From Montifringilla adamsi (lineage: Eukaryota > Chordata > Aves > Passeriformes > Passeridae), in contig JAGGNK010013670.1 in the NCBI GenBank assembly GCA_017590115.1, positions 2,849,343-2,913,342 of the forward strand: a stretch of 64,000 nt of DNA, written 5' to 3'. The stretch's first letter is position 1, and each line of letters opens with the position of its first letter. A model generated the notes under the pieces. The model saw only the letters and a list, made by a program, of their open reading frames with translations, had not been told where the DNA came from and ran no database searches. A program made the translations under genes and the position numbers. Positions 36,701-57,700 of this stretch are shown here, in pieces.

Positions 36701-39700
36701 CTGTGAGTTGTTTTCAAACTCTTTGGCCAATCAGGGTCAAGCTGTGTCGGGGCTCTGGGGAGAGTCACGAGATTCATTATTATCTTTTTAGCCTTCTGTA
36801 AGTATCTGTTCTGTATTCTTTAGTATAGTATAGTATAAAATTCTTTAATATAATATGGTATCATAAAATAATAAATTAGCCTTCTGAGAACATGGAGTCA
36901 GATTCATCATTCCTTCCTTCATCGGGGCACCCCGCAAATACAATAGACTAGCTTGTGGCTCTACTCAATTACCTGCTTGATATCACTCTGATGAACATTA
37001 TAATTACCATACAGGCAATAACCCCTGTTAAGATAACATTTAAACATTCAAGCATTCATGTTGTGAGGGACTTTGTTTAATAGCAAAATCACTTTGATTC
37101 ACAGAAAACAAGCTGCAACCCTGCATACATATGCAGATCACCCTCTTGTCCCTTTATGCAAACATTTAATAACAGTGACCACACCTGTAAGAGTGAGAAT
37201 TCTCACTATTCTGGTTTTGCTTAATAGAGCTTTTTGAAAGATGAAGTTATTCTCATTATTTTGGTTCTGCTTAATAGAGCATTTTGAAAGATGAAGTTAT
37301 CTAGACTTAATGATAAACTAAGCATGTTTCAGTCCATGTTCAGTTTCTAGCTCTGTTATAATTTGTTACTGCTATTGGCTTACAAGTTATTAATGCCTTG
37401 GAGTAGGGGCACACATCCCTTCTTTTCAGTGAATTCCTGAAGTTTCCGTGTATTTTAGAAATCCAAAGAACCACTACTGAAATAAAAAATACACTTCTAA
37501 CACTGCTGAAAAAAGCATGGCCCTCCTAATGAAATCTTTGAAACAAATGAAAAGCAAGTAACCAGCAACTTGGGAAGGAGGGGGGCATACCTCACCATCC
37601 TGGACTTCCCATTGTTGCCATGGGCTTCCAGACATTTAGCAATTTTGTGTTATTTACTCTTACTTTTTGCCCACTGCTGTTTTGCTTGTAAATAGACTGT
37701 TATTTTTTTCACTTACACCTACTAGTAAGTGTAGTATTGCTGGAAAGGGATTGGTTAATACCATCATGGGAGGCAACTCATTCCACAGTGTCTACCCCTT
37801 GAACTGTGTTCAACCAAGTTAATTTTCTTCAATGAACTTTGCTATGTGCAAACATCAAAAGCAAAATTAAAGCAATTCACTAAGAATGATGCTCCTTTCT
37901 AAAGCAATTAAAATACAGTGAATCAGATTCTGAACTGCATAACCTTGGTGCAAGTTGCTTTCAGCGGGCTGTTTAAATGTCAGATGATAGTCACATCCCA
38001 AACATGTAGTAACTCCAAATCACAAGGGCTACTCTGAAAGCACTTCCACTTTTTGTGGCAGAGGCACACCAGCATTTATTTTCACATCTTTACTAATGCT
38101 GCTGTAGTTTGTGATATGTGGACACAAAACATATCTAAGTGCAGCATTTGGAGACAAATTCCAAAGTCTAACACATCTTTTTCTTTCCAAGAGCCATTGG
38201 ATATATAAGTTTTACTTCACTGTAAAGCAATCATAATAAAAAATGAACAACCAATGAGTGGCAGCCTCTTTTCAGTGCCACTCTAAAGATTCTTTCACTT
38301 GAAGACTCAGTGTAATTGCAGAGAAAAGGACAGCTCTCTCAAATGTGGGTGGCCAAGATATGTGAGCATGCAGGTGGCTCCAGGAGACTGAGCACAACTG
38401 AGAAATAAAATCAAACTTCCCCATTTGGCGCCAAACAAAGATATCCCATTTTGAAATTACTCTGTTCATCAAAAAAGCTCTTCTCAATTTTACTCTTCCC
38501 CATTTTATGTCTTCTAACAGTATTTAGCCCTTTGGTGCTGTGAGTTCTGGTGTGCTCCTGAGCCAAGATGCGTGCCAAAGAGCAGTCTGTCACTTGCTGT
38601 GACAAAGGACTACAGGCAATGGCTTGGAAAGGTGTGTAACACATACCATATTTTTTATCAAACAGCTCTTCAACTTCCCTTCTCAAGTCAGTAATTCGTG
38701 TATTCCATTTGTCTGCAAAGAAAAGAGGAGGACAGGTCAAGCTACAAACAAACCTGAGAATCTTGTTACCCCTAAATGAAATATGAAGCATGTACTTTTA
38801 TTTGCAAACAGGTGCCTCCTGAGTACAGTTCAGACTACACCTTAAAATGCATGGATGCATTAAAAAAAAAAGCACAGAATAAAATGTTAAACATTACTTC
38901 TGAACGATGTACATTAAATAAAGTTTAAAAAACCACAACAAACACCAGGTTAAAGTAACTTCCAAAAATGATTTCTCTCTTTGATGGCTCAGTCATCAGC
39001 TCTTGCTACCTCCAGGGGTAAAGGCAGTTTATAGGTGCTGTTGACAGTTACCTAGATTTGAGTGCAGGAAAACTTGATAAGCTTACAGAAAGCATATGGA
39101 GCTGTTTTGGTGGAAATCTGTACAACTACATGGATCAGGAGGCATCTGCCCTTCTCTATTTTAATCCAGTATTTCTCCAAGTCCTGGTGTTGCAAAATAC
39201 ACCAAGAAATCCTATTTCTGAAAGAAAATACGGCTGCAAAAAAGAAGTTTATCCAAATCCAAACCTGTGCATCCAATTACATTGTCACGTTAAATAACAA
39301 AAAATAACAGAGGCAGCCTATGATGGTGATTATACTGCTGCAATCCGTCTAAACAGAGACCAGGGCTCTTAAATGAAAGCTTGCACTAAAATCTCTCGCC
39401 TGCACAACAAAATTACTCAAATCCCTTTCATAAAACAAAGCACTGAAACAAAATCATCTAGAATTTTCATCTTACCAAAATTGAACTGTATTCCTCTGCT
39501 TCTCCCACTACTGCCCGAGTCGTTACCTGACTTGGGGCTTCTCTGTCTCCTCTCACGGGGTATGTAGTCATCATCATCTTAAACAGATAAAAACAAAATC
39601 ACTGGGTTTTTGTCCAAGAAACTCGTGTGCAGCACTGGAACTGCTTTGAATTTCAAAACTAAAACAGAATTAAGGAACTGTGTTTGCCAGGCAACAAATG

Positions 39701-54700: not shown

Positions 54701-57700
54701 ACCAACTGAAATTCAGGACCCATGGTACTGACCTTCTATGGTGACCTCAACCTCAGGTTTCTCACTTATTTCTGGTAAGTCAGGGTGGGAGGCCTCTGAA
54801 AGGGAAAAACAGGACAGTTGAATGATGAACATAGACAAGATTTTCAACCAAACACTCCATGCCTTTGCATCTAAACCATATAGGTAAAACCTTATGAAAC
54901 AAGGGCCTTGTTACCCTTGTAAAATCATGGCTCAGGCCTGCTACTTCAGCTAAGCAGAAAAGGACTATGGCAAAGTGACACAGGTGCATTGGAGGCAGAA
55001 GAGGAAGTTATATAACCATGACGTGTTCACATTGTGGTTGGGGTGGTTGGTTGAAATAGATCTGTTATACCAAAACAGAATGTAACAGATAATGGGTTAC
55101 CTGCTTAAAAAAGGCCTGTTTTTTGCAATAAACATCTCTGCTTTGCATCTGCCTGGGGACTCTGCATCACTTTGCTTCGTGCAATTTACCCTCACAAAAT
55201 AAAATTATACATCTCATAGGCTCTAACTGTATTTCCTCATCTTTTCCTTCACTGCTATCAGAACTCTAGTAGCTGCCTTTAAAAACATAAAGTAAAAAAC
55301 ATATTCCTGACTGCACAGAACCTTATAAAAGCAGACAGATTAAAGCGTCCACAAAACCAAACCAAATCTAACCACAGAATGAAGGAGAGGTACAGGATCA
55401 CAAAAAATCCCAGGTGAAGCATCTTTGAGCAGGCTAAACTGAAGAGCAAGGATGTGTTTCTGTGGAGAACCCAACAGGAGGGATCATGAAAGAACAAAAC
55501 CAGAAAATCCCAAGTTTCTGTGTGCCTATTTACGTCATCATATCAAATAACAAAACACAACCAAGGTAGCTGATGGTGATGACTATACTCTGCCGCTTTC
55601 CTTCCCCCAGCTAGCTGATGTTGAGTGTGGGGGGGGCGGCAGTTTTCCCCCTGGAGCTCCTTGAATCCCAGTTGTCAGTTGTTTGGGCGCAATATAAAAC
55701 ACAGACAGCGCACAGGGGTCCCAGGGAAACTTTATTTGATGGTGTTTCTTCCCCTCCTTCTTCCTGGGCCTCGACGAAGGGGCCAGCAAAGACTTATATC
55801 TCAGGGGAAAGGCAGGGGCAGACCCAACTTCCAACAAATCAGGAGAGTTGAGAGTAAAAACCCAGGCGGAGAATAACGGTAACGAACCAATAAACTTCCA
55901 AGGAAGGAAAACAGTCTTAGGAAATGGGTAAAATTTGGAGAAATAGAAACTAGAAACTAGCTGACGACATTTCTGGGAAAAGGGTGGAGACAAAAGAAAG
56001 ACCAGCACCAAGGAAAAACACTAAATCACAAATCAAACCATAGACCCACTGATAAAACAAAAAGCACGATACAACATATACTGCTGCAATACATCGACAC
56101 AGACCCCATGGAGCTTACATGAAATTCCAAAAATGGTTCTTTTTTAGCCTAATCCTGTCAAAAAGGTTCTAAGCGATCAGTTGATGTGACAGTTATTTTT
56201 GCAACTATACTGAACTTTTTGGCACCACAAAATCACCCAAAACTTTTTCATAAAACACAGCAGGGAGACAAAACCATCTTTAATTTTCCTCTTACCAAAA
56301 TTAAATTCTTCTGCATTTCTTCTCCCAGTACTGGCAGCTTCAGCAGCCAAACTGGGGCTCCTCAGGCTCCCTTCACTGGGCAGATACTCATCATCACCGT
56401 CATTATCATCACCAACATCAACATCATCTTTAAGAAAGAAAAAAAAAAAAACCCAATTGGTTTTATGTCAAGGGAACTCGTGTGCAGCACTGGAACTGCT
56501 TTGAATTTCAGAACTAAAACAGAATTAAGGAACTCTGCCTATCAGGATAACAAATTTTGCAACAAATTAATTAACTGAGTAACTTCAGAAAGCTCCAGTT
56601 CTTACCTATGAAGGAACAACTTGTTCCTTCAAAAGGGCCTGTGCAAAGCACAGAGAGCAAAGAACAAAGCTGCTCCTGTACTTCCCAAGGAAAACAACAT
56701 TGTCTTCTGAAACATGACTGGGCATCACATGATCGTAAAACAACCATGCAACAGCAAAAGGAATCACAGAATAAATTGTGCAGATATGGAATACCTTTGT
56801 TATCTAACTGGGACTAATATCATTTACTAGTAGATCTCAAAAGACAGTACCGATGTTTTGTCTTGAAGAGCTCAAATGTTCTAAACCCACTTTCAAAGCA
56901 GTAAAAAAACAACGGGAACCAATGAAATTCATTGAACAGCTCAACTCTGCCTTAAACACACACAAGTGGACAGACAGAAGAACAGCAGGGACACTGCTTA
57001 GCAGCTCTAGAGCCATTTATATGACAAAGAAAGCTGGTCAGTGCAAAGGTGTGGATCTCACAGTTATCAATATTAGACAGACACCCTGAGGCTCCACTTA
57101 CACCACCTGCAGCACTGCCTTTCTGTTCTGGCACCATTCTTCCCAGAAGCATTGCTTAACTACAAATGTTACATCGAACTACAATGTGGTTATAAACCAA
57201 TGTGCTCTCCAGAATGAATAATGTCATAACATCTTCAGTGTTCAATGAATATTTTCATTACCAACACCTGAAAATTACACCAAGGGCTATAAATTGCTGT
57301 CAGGCATCATTTCAAAACCATTCCAGCACTCCAATATGCATCAGTGTATTGTGATTTTCTAATACTTCTCCACCAGATTAGTTTACCAAGCAGTGCACAA
57401 TCCAAATTACACTCAACACCAGCACACAATTCTCTTCATTCATTACCAAGTAATTCAGGCTTTGGAAAACACATTCTGGGTAGAAAAATGCGTGAAATCA
57501 ATGATGTGGGGAACTGACCTTCGTTACTGAACTCAGCCTCAGAATCCTCACTTGTGTCTGACGAGTCAGGCTGGGAGGGCTCTGAAAGGGAAAAAAGAAG
57601 AATGCTGAATGATGGACATGGACAAGATTTTCTACCAAAAACTCCATACCTTTGCATCTAAACCAACATTGTCAAAGAAGCCCCTTCAGCTCACAGCATG

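Follow-up and report, generated by a model that had tools for sequence, protein, structure and literature searches.

Seven tandem pairs of linker exons in GTF2I of Montifringilla adamsi and their distribution among birds

The linker that precedes I-repeat 2 of human TFII-I, the transcription factor encoded by GTF2I, presumably contains one copy of a short exon (S) and one copy of a longer exon (D). A 64,000-nucleotide stretch of the Montifringilla adamsi genome (assembly GCA_017590115.1, contig JAGGNK010013670.1, positions 2,849,343 to 2,913,342; hereafter, the window) was predicted to carry seven such pairs, which raises the question of whether the array is real, how it is distributed among birds, and what it might do to the protein. 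We found that the array is present, that its exons are frame-neutral, and that comparable arrays occur in most sampled passerines, with no more than one extra unit in the other sampled birds.

Fourteen open exons upstream of I-repeat 2

Seven S exons alternate with seven D exons on the minus strand between 39476 (the end of D1) and 57581 (the start of S7), upstream of I-repeat 2. The transcript order is S7 D7 S6 D6 S5 D5 S4 D4 S3 D3 S2 D2 S1 D1, followed by I-repeat 2. Exact placement of the exons thus reproduced the limits of the 18-kb, seven-pair region that had been predicted. All 14 exons are flanked by an AG acceptor and a GT donor, have a length divisible by three, and are in phase 1-1. 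The S exons are uniformly 63 base pairs (bp) long and sum to 441 bp, the figure already put forward, and the D exons measure 102, 105 (four copies), 114, and 132 bp, giving 768 bp instead of the anticipated 762 or so. Overall, the array encodes 403 residues. The predicted addition of about 400 residues therefore holds as the array total but not as the gain, which would be approximately 344 relative to one human pair of 59 residues. When donors were scored by a simple weighting scheme, S exons reached 82-90 and D exons 72-87, as compared to 80-81 for both I-repeat 2 exons; D5 (72) and D2 (75) were the weakest in the array. Repeat families in the window demonstrated that the introns were duplicated together with the exons, so the repeated introns of the prediction are real. 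The copies have exon and flanking intron sequence, order, and phase in common, which fits a tandem exon duplication.

Linker exon A, the 14 array exons, and I-repeat 2 together give 505 codons with zero stops. All 120 forward exon-exon junctions among exon A, the array exons, and the first I-repeat 2 exon lack a stop (the stop-free junctions after D2 are uninformative, as only three exons lie downstream of it). Thus, any exon subset can be spliced in frame, and any of the 2^14 subsets of the array is stop-free; the frame arrangement that would forbid joint inclusion in a mutually exclusive exon cluster of the Dscam type is absent. The up to nine S and nine D units together in one protein model also speak against a single copy per transcript, although models are not transcripts. 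To look for S and D units independently of passerine sequences, we trained hidden Markov models (HMMs) on non-passerine birds only (10 S and 21 D sequences) and applied them to the window in all six frames. At a score of at least 8, they matched all seven D exons and six of the seven S exons, S7 falling below 8. Two further matches reached this score, an S-like stretch linking I-repeats 4 and 5 and a match on the plus strand, and five shuffled windows yielded one S match and no D match. No S or D copies beyond the seven were found in the window at a score of 8, a threshold at which decayed copies could be missed, since S7 itself falls below it. In a simulation of neutral drift at intron rates (p 0.157; 26 frame-shifting indels per 3168 aligned bases, from pooled pairwise alignments of six D introns), all 14 exons stayed open with a probability of 4.1e-4, or 2.5e-6 if the splice dinucleotides were also to be kept; the simulation assumes a star tree, the observed exons as the start, and a set transition share. 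Together with the HMM matches and their shuffled controls, the simulation led us to reject chance open frames.

The assignment to GTF2I was confirmed by several lines of evidence. The best PDB match of I-repeat 2 is the human GTF2I domain 2dn4 (8.7e-37), as compared to 4.8e-22 for the best GTF2IRD1 entry, and the joined repeat matches the Pfam GTF2I family at 1e-30. PF02946 also matches the longer exon of each of I-repeats 3, 4, 5, and 6. Repeats 2 to 6 follow each other in the TFII-I order, while I-repeat 1 was not found within the window. Among the listed protein matches, full-length ones with a specific name are GTF2I, and the joined I-repeats (a query without the small exons) are closest, among the 251 proteins surveyed below, to those of the snowfinches Pyrgilauda and Onychostruthus (91%) and then of Passer (88%), which makes a source bird of the sparrow family (Passeridae) probable. 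The TFII-I family has several members, and thus the host could be conceived as a separate GTF2I-like paralogue or a pseudogene. With I-repeats 2 to 6 ordered, open, and nearest to GTF2I, and with NCF1-like exons downstream on the same strand, as NCF1 presumably follows GTF2I in human 7q11.23, this is very improbable.

Occurrence of the array across birds

The distribution of the array was surveyed with three protein searches, of which the best 120 of 1463, 1148, and 1802 matches were retained (251 proteins). After removal of one unnamed protein, the set comprised 52 passerine and 56 non-passerine species. There is a bias towards long arrays in search 1 and towards the ancestral form in search 2 and in search 3, which was seeded with Cariama; in searches 1 and 3, scoring was limited to the 8000 candidates that shared the most words. 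At least three D units (3 to 9) were found in 39 of the 52 passerine species, suboscines included, and in none of the 56 non-passerines, 54 of which had one D unit and two of which had two. The maximum number of D units per passerine species (number of species in parentheses) was one (10), two (3), three (1), four (2), five (4), six (9), seven (15), eight (7), and nine (1). A single S-D pair was present in the sampled ostrich, kiwi, emu, ducks, geese, owls, raptors, storks, and penguin. The best 120 matches of each search contained no falcons, parrots, New Zealand wrens, or landfowl, although search 3 had been seeded to date the expansion against the first three of these groups. The arrays were already present in public protein models. 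Judged from these models, the expansion is passerine-wide and not peculiar to the M. adamsi genome. If it was a single event, the sample dates it no more closely than to before the divergence of the sampled suboscines and oscines.

Linker changes in other birds affect the same gene and site; however, they add one extra unit and do not form a long array. Seven of the eight sampled shorebird and gull species have the order SSD (Charadrius vociferus has SD), the hoatzin linker reads SDSD, and one malkoha has SDD before its first I-repeat 2. These changes apparently represent events separate from the passerine array. In the cuckoo models of Cuculus canorus (P0059) and Phaenicophaeus curvirostris (P0075), I-repeat 2 occurs twice, each time with its own S-D or D, so that in Cuculus both I-repeat 2 and the S-D pair are doubled. 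By the sequences of these models, the cuckoo doubling would be a separate, whole-repeat duplication.

Evolution of the exon copies and their introns

A tree built from the pairs of the window and of 19 database proteins contained seven clades defined by position (support 0.62-0.98), in which the window grouped with Passer, Motacilla, Agelaius, Serinus, Geothlypis, and Taeniopygia. In all six genera, the seven window pairs had colinear reciprocal best matches (7/7), with a mean within-pair identity of 0.70-0.85 versus 0.41-0.50 for paralogues of the same species; the ranges overlap (lowest orthologue 0.54, highest paralogue 0.69). Taeniopygia and Geothlypis carry one extra pair each. The Onychostruthus model matched six of the seven pairs and lacks pair 3, while starling, swallow, jay, and three suboscines matched only partially. 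Copies within a species had a mean identity of 0.43-0.49 in the window, Taeniopygia, Acridotheres, and Hirundo, as compared to 0.76-0.84 in the jay and the suboscines. Thus, turnover or homogenisation looks active in some lineages, with seven distinct pairs fixed in another.

These comparisons bear on the concern, raised with the original prediction, that the array might be a false expansion made during assembly. Repetitive regions can be mishandled, and an inverted repeat of approximately 550 bp lies within one intron. However, most repeated segments are 60-93% alike and unequally spaced (a 239-bp repeat at 97% and the short S introns being the exceptions), and collapse would be the likelier error, if any. 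As colinear orthologues exist in protein models of other species and the pair tree groups them by position, an artefact was ruled out for the array as a whole and is scarcely credible as an explanation.

We found that the exons have diverged more than the introns in front of them. For D1-4, D6, and D7, the divergence (p) was 0.326 (0.276-0.373) in exons, 0.153 (0.122-0.183) in upstream introns, and 0.192 (0.139-0.249) in downstream introns; D5, whose upstream intron aligns poorly, was left out, as were S5 and S6 from the S set. The D exon exceeded the upstream intron in 15 of 15 pairs, and p at second codon positions was 0.375. The effect was weaker for the five S copies, in which exon divergence (0.230; 0.158-0.297) equalled that of the downstream intron (0.231) and was higher than that of the upstream intron (0.134; 0.096-0.173). 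Taken pair by pair, the S exon was more diverged than the upstream intron in 9 of 10 cases, with S2/S3 as the exception. The upstream introns of S2 and S7 have 66 identical bases reaching the exon edge and are 97% alike over 160 ungapped bases, while the exons themselves show differences at 16 of 63 bases and at 11 of 20 residues. The introns before S2, S5, and S7 (42588-42750, 48017-48070, and 57582-57745) have an identical stretch of 53-66 bases in common that reaches the exon. Such identical stretches in front of differing exons look like gene conversion that stopped at the exons.

The roughly twofold higher divergence of D copies as compared to their preceding introns suggests diversifying selection and/or gene conversion of introns with exons kept distinct. 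The latter fits at least as well as simple positive selection. The pooled ratio of nonsynonymous to synonymous divergence (dN/dS) among copies was near 1 for both D (1.19; 0.73-1.95) and S (1.10; 0.45-3.06), and synonymous differences were raised too (pS 0.295). We therefore rejected dN/dS as proof of positive selection, as the interval includes 1; by the same values, purifying selection on residues is not shown.

Such divergence could point to a combinatorial splicing code, in which cell type or stage would determine which of the individually diverged S and D cassettes are used, and the identity of the included copies would matter as well as their number. All copies are distinct and keep their register in the window and in six further genera, the D exons, and likewise S2 and S7, differ more from each other than do the introns before them, any of the 2^14 subsets is open, and models of one species skip different cassettes (by exact-string matching, in which some differences are junction letters only). 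However, copy identity could hardly matter in the suboscines and the jay, where the copies are so similar, and the dN/dS interval includes 1. We regard a code of this kind as unlikely.

The same data were examined for near-neutral duplication with splicing noise, in which the extra pairs would be mostly skipped and the protein would nearly always have the ancestral one-pair form. Frame-neutral cassettes make duplication cheap, the dN/dS is near 1, and copy number varies freely, all of which would suit such a scenario. Neutral decay, in contrast, would be expected to break some of the 14 exons (2.5e-6 in the simulation), the same seven pairs recur in the same order in six other genera, and the HMMs found no further decayed copies in the window (strongly decayed ones would be missed). 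On balance, noise is quite unlikely to account for the array.

The encoded linker and the surroundings of the array

Each S unit is a Ser/Glu block with a net charge of -6 to -8. Each D unit combines an acidic head, the last residue of which is tyrosine, with a tail whose net charge ranges from -1 to +12. The charge-block variance of the array was reached by none of 2000 shuffles. The tyrosine is conserved in 85% of 254 distinct D sequences from passerines, and arginine at two positions in 81% and 83%. This tyrosine is presumably the known phosphosite at residue 277 of the Delta isoform, for which a literature search gave no usable result, and D presumably also contains the import signal of TFII-I and the basic region with which it binds DNA. 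That TFII-I has such a region and signal is stated in PMC4081084. In a structural model of a Lonchura protein with four pairs (P0031; 22-sequence alignment; mean predicted local distance difference test, pLDDT, 56), all six I-repeats fold, while residues 187-503 have a pLDDT below 50 and no secondary structure. A new fold formed by the S/D repeats was thus rejected, as the four-pair model is structureless there.

The array can be compared with known cassettes of the mammalian gene. S presumably corresponds to mammalian cassette exon 12 (21 residues), judging from isoform lengths of 998, 978, 977, and 957, and exon A presumably, by its sequence, to exon 10. Taken together with PMC5343945, these lengths make the assignment of S probable. 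According to that paper, exons 9-12 of mammalian Gtf2i are in-frame cassettes used in variable combinations, giving nine coding variants with altered PEST length and possibly different target genes. The mammalian cassettes (TFII-I alpha, beta, gamma, Delta, and others) and the passerine ones thus affect the same gene and linker and are equally in frame. They differ in that most sampled passerines have multiplied the S-D pair, including D, which is apparently constitutive in mammals.

Tandem exon duplication with alternative use of the copies is known from Dscam, troponin T, and the PEVK region of titin, a disordered spring of repeated cassettes. Like these, the passerine array consists of tandem, phase-matched copies in one gene, open to alternative use. 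Unlike these, it alternates two different exons with many copies per model, belongs to a transcription factor, and is confined to one bird order among those sampled. Previous reports of TFII-I exon arrays, of which the original prediction knew none, were also not found for birds in the open-licence literature; the tree swallow paper that matched names GTF2IRD1 (PMC6825141). The phenomenon is thus of a known kind and, as far as searched, apparently new in GTF2I and in passerines, with its two-exon alternating unit.

The most probable reading, in our view, is that the array provides a passerine-specific disordered linker in TFII-I, whose length is set by cassette splicing. A cassette of S (63 bp) and the next exon, D (approximately 105 bp), multiplied in tandem inside GTF2I in the passerine lineage, presumably by unequal exchange. 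Splicing would include S and D cassettes in varying numbers, resulting in a disordered linker of one to seven or more pairs between I-repeats 1 and 2. Each pair would contribute an acidic Ser/Glu block from S and an acidic head from D, in which the tyrosine is mostly conserved; several D copies would add a basic tail. Cassette inclusion would thereby determine how long the linker is, which charge blocks it has, and how many potential phosphorylation and basic sites it offers, and may tune partner, chromatin, or import behaviour without making a new fold. The copies are still alike in the sampled suboscines and a jay, whereas seven distinct pairs were fixed in order in Passeroidea and Estrildidae.

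Several observations weigh against this reading. First, 13 of the 52 passerine species have two or fewer D units. Seven of these are represented by proteins labelled partial with a lone D only, and the other six by short models. Relatives in the sample mostly show higher counts: Passer montanus has one D and P. domesticus seven; Corvus brachyrhynchos one and C. cornix two, as compared to four in C. hawaiiensis and five in C. moneduloides; Zosterops lateralis two and Z. borbonicus seven; Geospiza two and Camarhynchus seven. Only Coccothraustes, with one D, is a short model without a named close relative of higher count in the sample, and a real one-pair passerine may be among the low-D species. 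Second, the dN/dS ratios near 1 give no sign of constraint on the residues, and basic D tails are not universal. Third, mammalian coding variants of exons 9-12 leave the number of nuclear localization signals unchanged, according to PMC5343945. Fourth, the S/D pattern varied between models of one species in 16 of 19 passerines with at least two models versus 3 of 35 non-passerines, which favours the reading, but the comparison is biased, as proteins carrying S and D served as seeds in searches 2 and 3 and S-skipping non-passerine forms may rank below the listed matches. Last, exon use, including the up to nine S and nine D units together in one protein model, was read from database gene models among the best 120 matches per search, which are not transcripts and may be computed maxima.

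A further-reaching proposal would make passerine GTF2I a combinatorial isoform generator, in which individually diverged S and D cassettes give as many as 2^14 in-frame linkers. Diversifying selection would have separated the exons while the introns were homogenised, and the resulting cell-specific TFII-I versions would occur in no other sampled bird order. We consider it doubtful and put it forward tentatively. GTF2I is a dosage-sensitive Williams-syndrome gene, TFII-I dosage affects brain and social behaviour in mammals, and passerines make up more than half of bird species. The effect of dosage is also described in PMC5343945. The lengthening, restricted in the sample to passerines, arises from a region known in mammals for isoform switching and offers a directly testable case of tandem exon duplication reshaping a transcription factor. 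Passerine GTF2I models and expression counts may also depend on assembly and isoform choice.

Table 1. Features of the GTF2I locus in window coordinates.
Feature	Position	Strand	Remarks
Linker exon A	59087..59143	-	57 bp; upstream of array
S7 exon	57519..57581	-	63 bp; AG/GT, phase 1-1; below score 8 in non-passerine S HMM
D7 exon	56296..56427	-	132 bp; AG/GT, phase 1-1; D HMM 28.7 bits
S6 exon	54733..54795	-	63 bp; splice sites, phase, HMM match
D6 exon	54143..54247	-	105 bp; top-scoring copy with non-passerine D HMM, 55.0 bits
S5 exon	47954..48016	-	63 bp; splice sites, phase, HMM match
D5 exon	47489..47602	-	114 bp; most basic tail (+12); splice sites, phase, HMM match
S4 exon	46797..46859	-	63 bp; splice sites, phase, HMM match
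D4 exon	44920..45024	-	105 bp; splice sites, phase, HMM match
S3 exon	44538..44600	-	63 bp; splice sites, phase, HMM match
D3 exon, short form	44085..44189	-	105 bp; splice sites, phase, HMM match
D3 exon, long form	44085..44270	-	upstream acceptor, +81 nucleotides (27 residues), in frame, open
S2 exon	42525..42587	-	63 bp; splice sites, phase, HMM match
D2 exon	42075..42179	-	105 bp; donor with T at -1; splice sites, phase, HMM match
S1 exon	40377..40439	-	63 bp; splice sites, phase, HMM match
D1 exon	39476..39577	-	102 bp; immediately precedes I-repeat 2; splice sites, phase, HMM match
I-repeat 2, first exon	38647..38712	-	PDB sequence match; open reading through exon A and array
I-repeat 2, second exon	36306..36489	-	82% identity to human repeat; PDB 2dn4
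I-repeats 3 to 6 together	21830..33295	-
I-repeat 3	33295-33218/32524-32339	-	tblastn segments
I-repeat 4	31281-31207/30703-30509	-	tblastn segments
I-repeat 5	27055-26978/25471-25286	-	tblastn segments
I-repeat 6	22900-22808/22015-21830	-	tblastn segments
NCF1-like exons	3627..6784	-	downstream of GTF2I; match neutrophil cytosol factor 1 sequences in PDB (2.9e-20 and 3.1e-12)
77-nucleotide element copies	39762-39838, 42362-42438, 44360-44436, 45211-45287, 54437-54513, 56618-56694

D3 alone can be extended in frame from an upstream acceptor. The matching stretch contains stops or a frame shift at D1, D4, D5, and D6, and the pattern is missing at D2 and D7. The extension is present, almost letter-identical, in models of 14 passerine species, and by eye its added residues (44190-44270) are better kept than the D unit itself. 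A 77-nucleotide intron element lies approximately 170-190 nucleotides upstream of six of the seven D exons, with 70-92% ungapped identity to the reference copy. Aligned with gaps, it falls in the least diverged part of the D introns and is a candidate splicing element or recently homogenised tract.

Within the D6-S5 intron, the arms of the inverted repeat (50320-50864 and 51872-52424) are 95% alike and approximately 1 kb apart, with a third fragment at 52788-52858; the repeat is probably derived from a mobile element. The direct 239-bp repeat occupies two array introns (41108-41346 and 49497-49735) and could be either a young insertion pair or a recent conversion. The S-like stretch between I-repeats 4 and 5 (29213-29254, 10.5 bits) is a possible ancient relative of S. 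Last, a 39-bp tandem repeat of 4.3 copies was found downstream of GTF2I, at 9513-9684.

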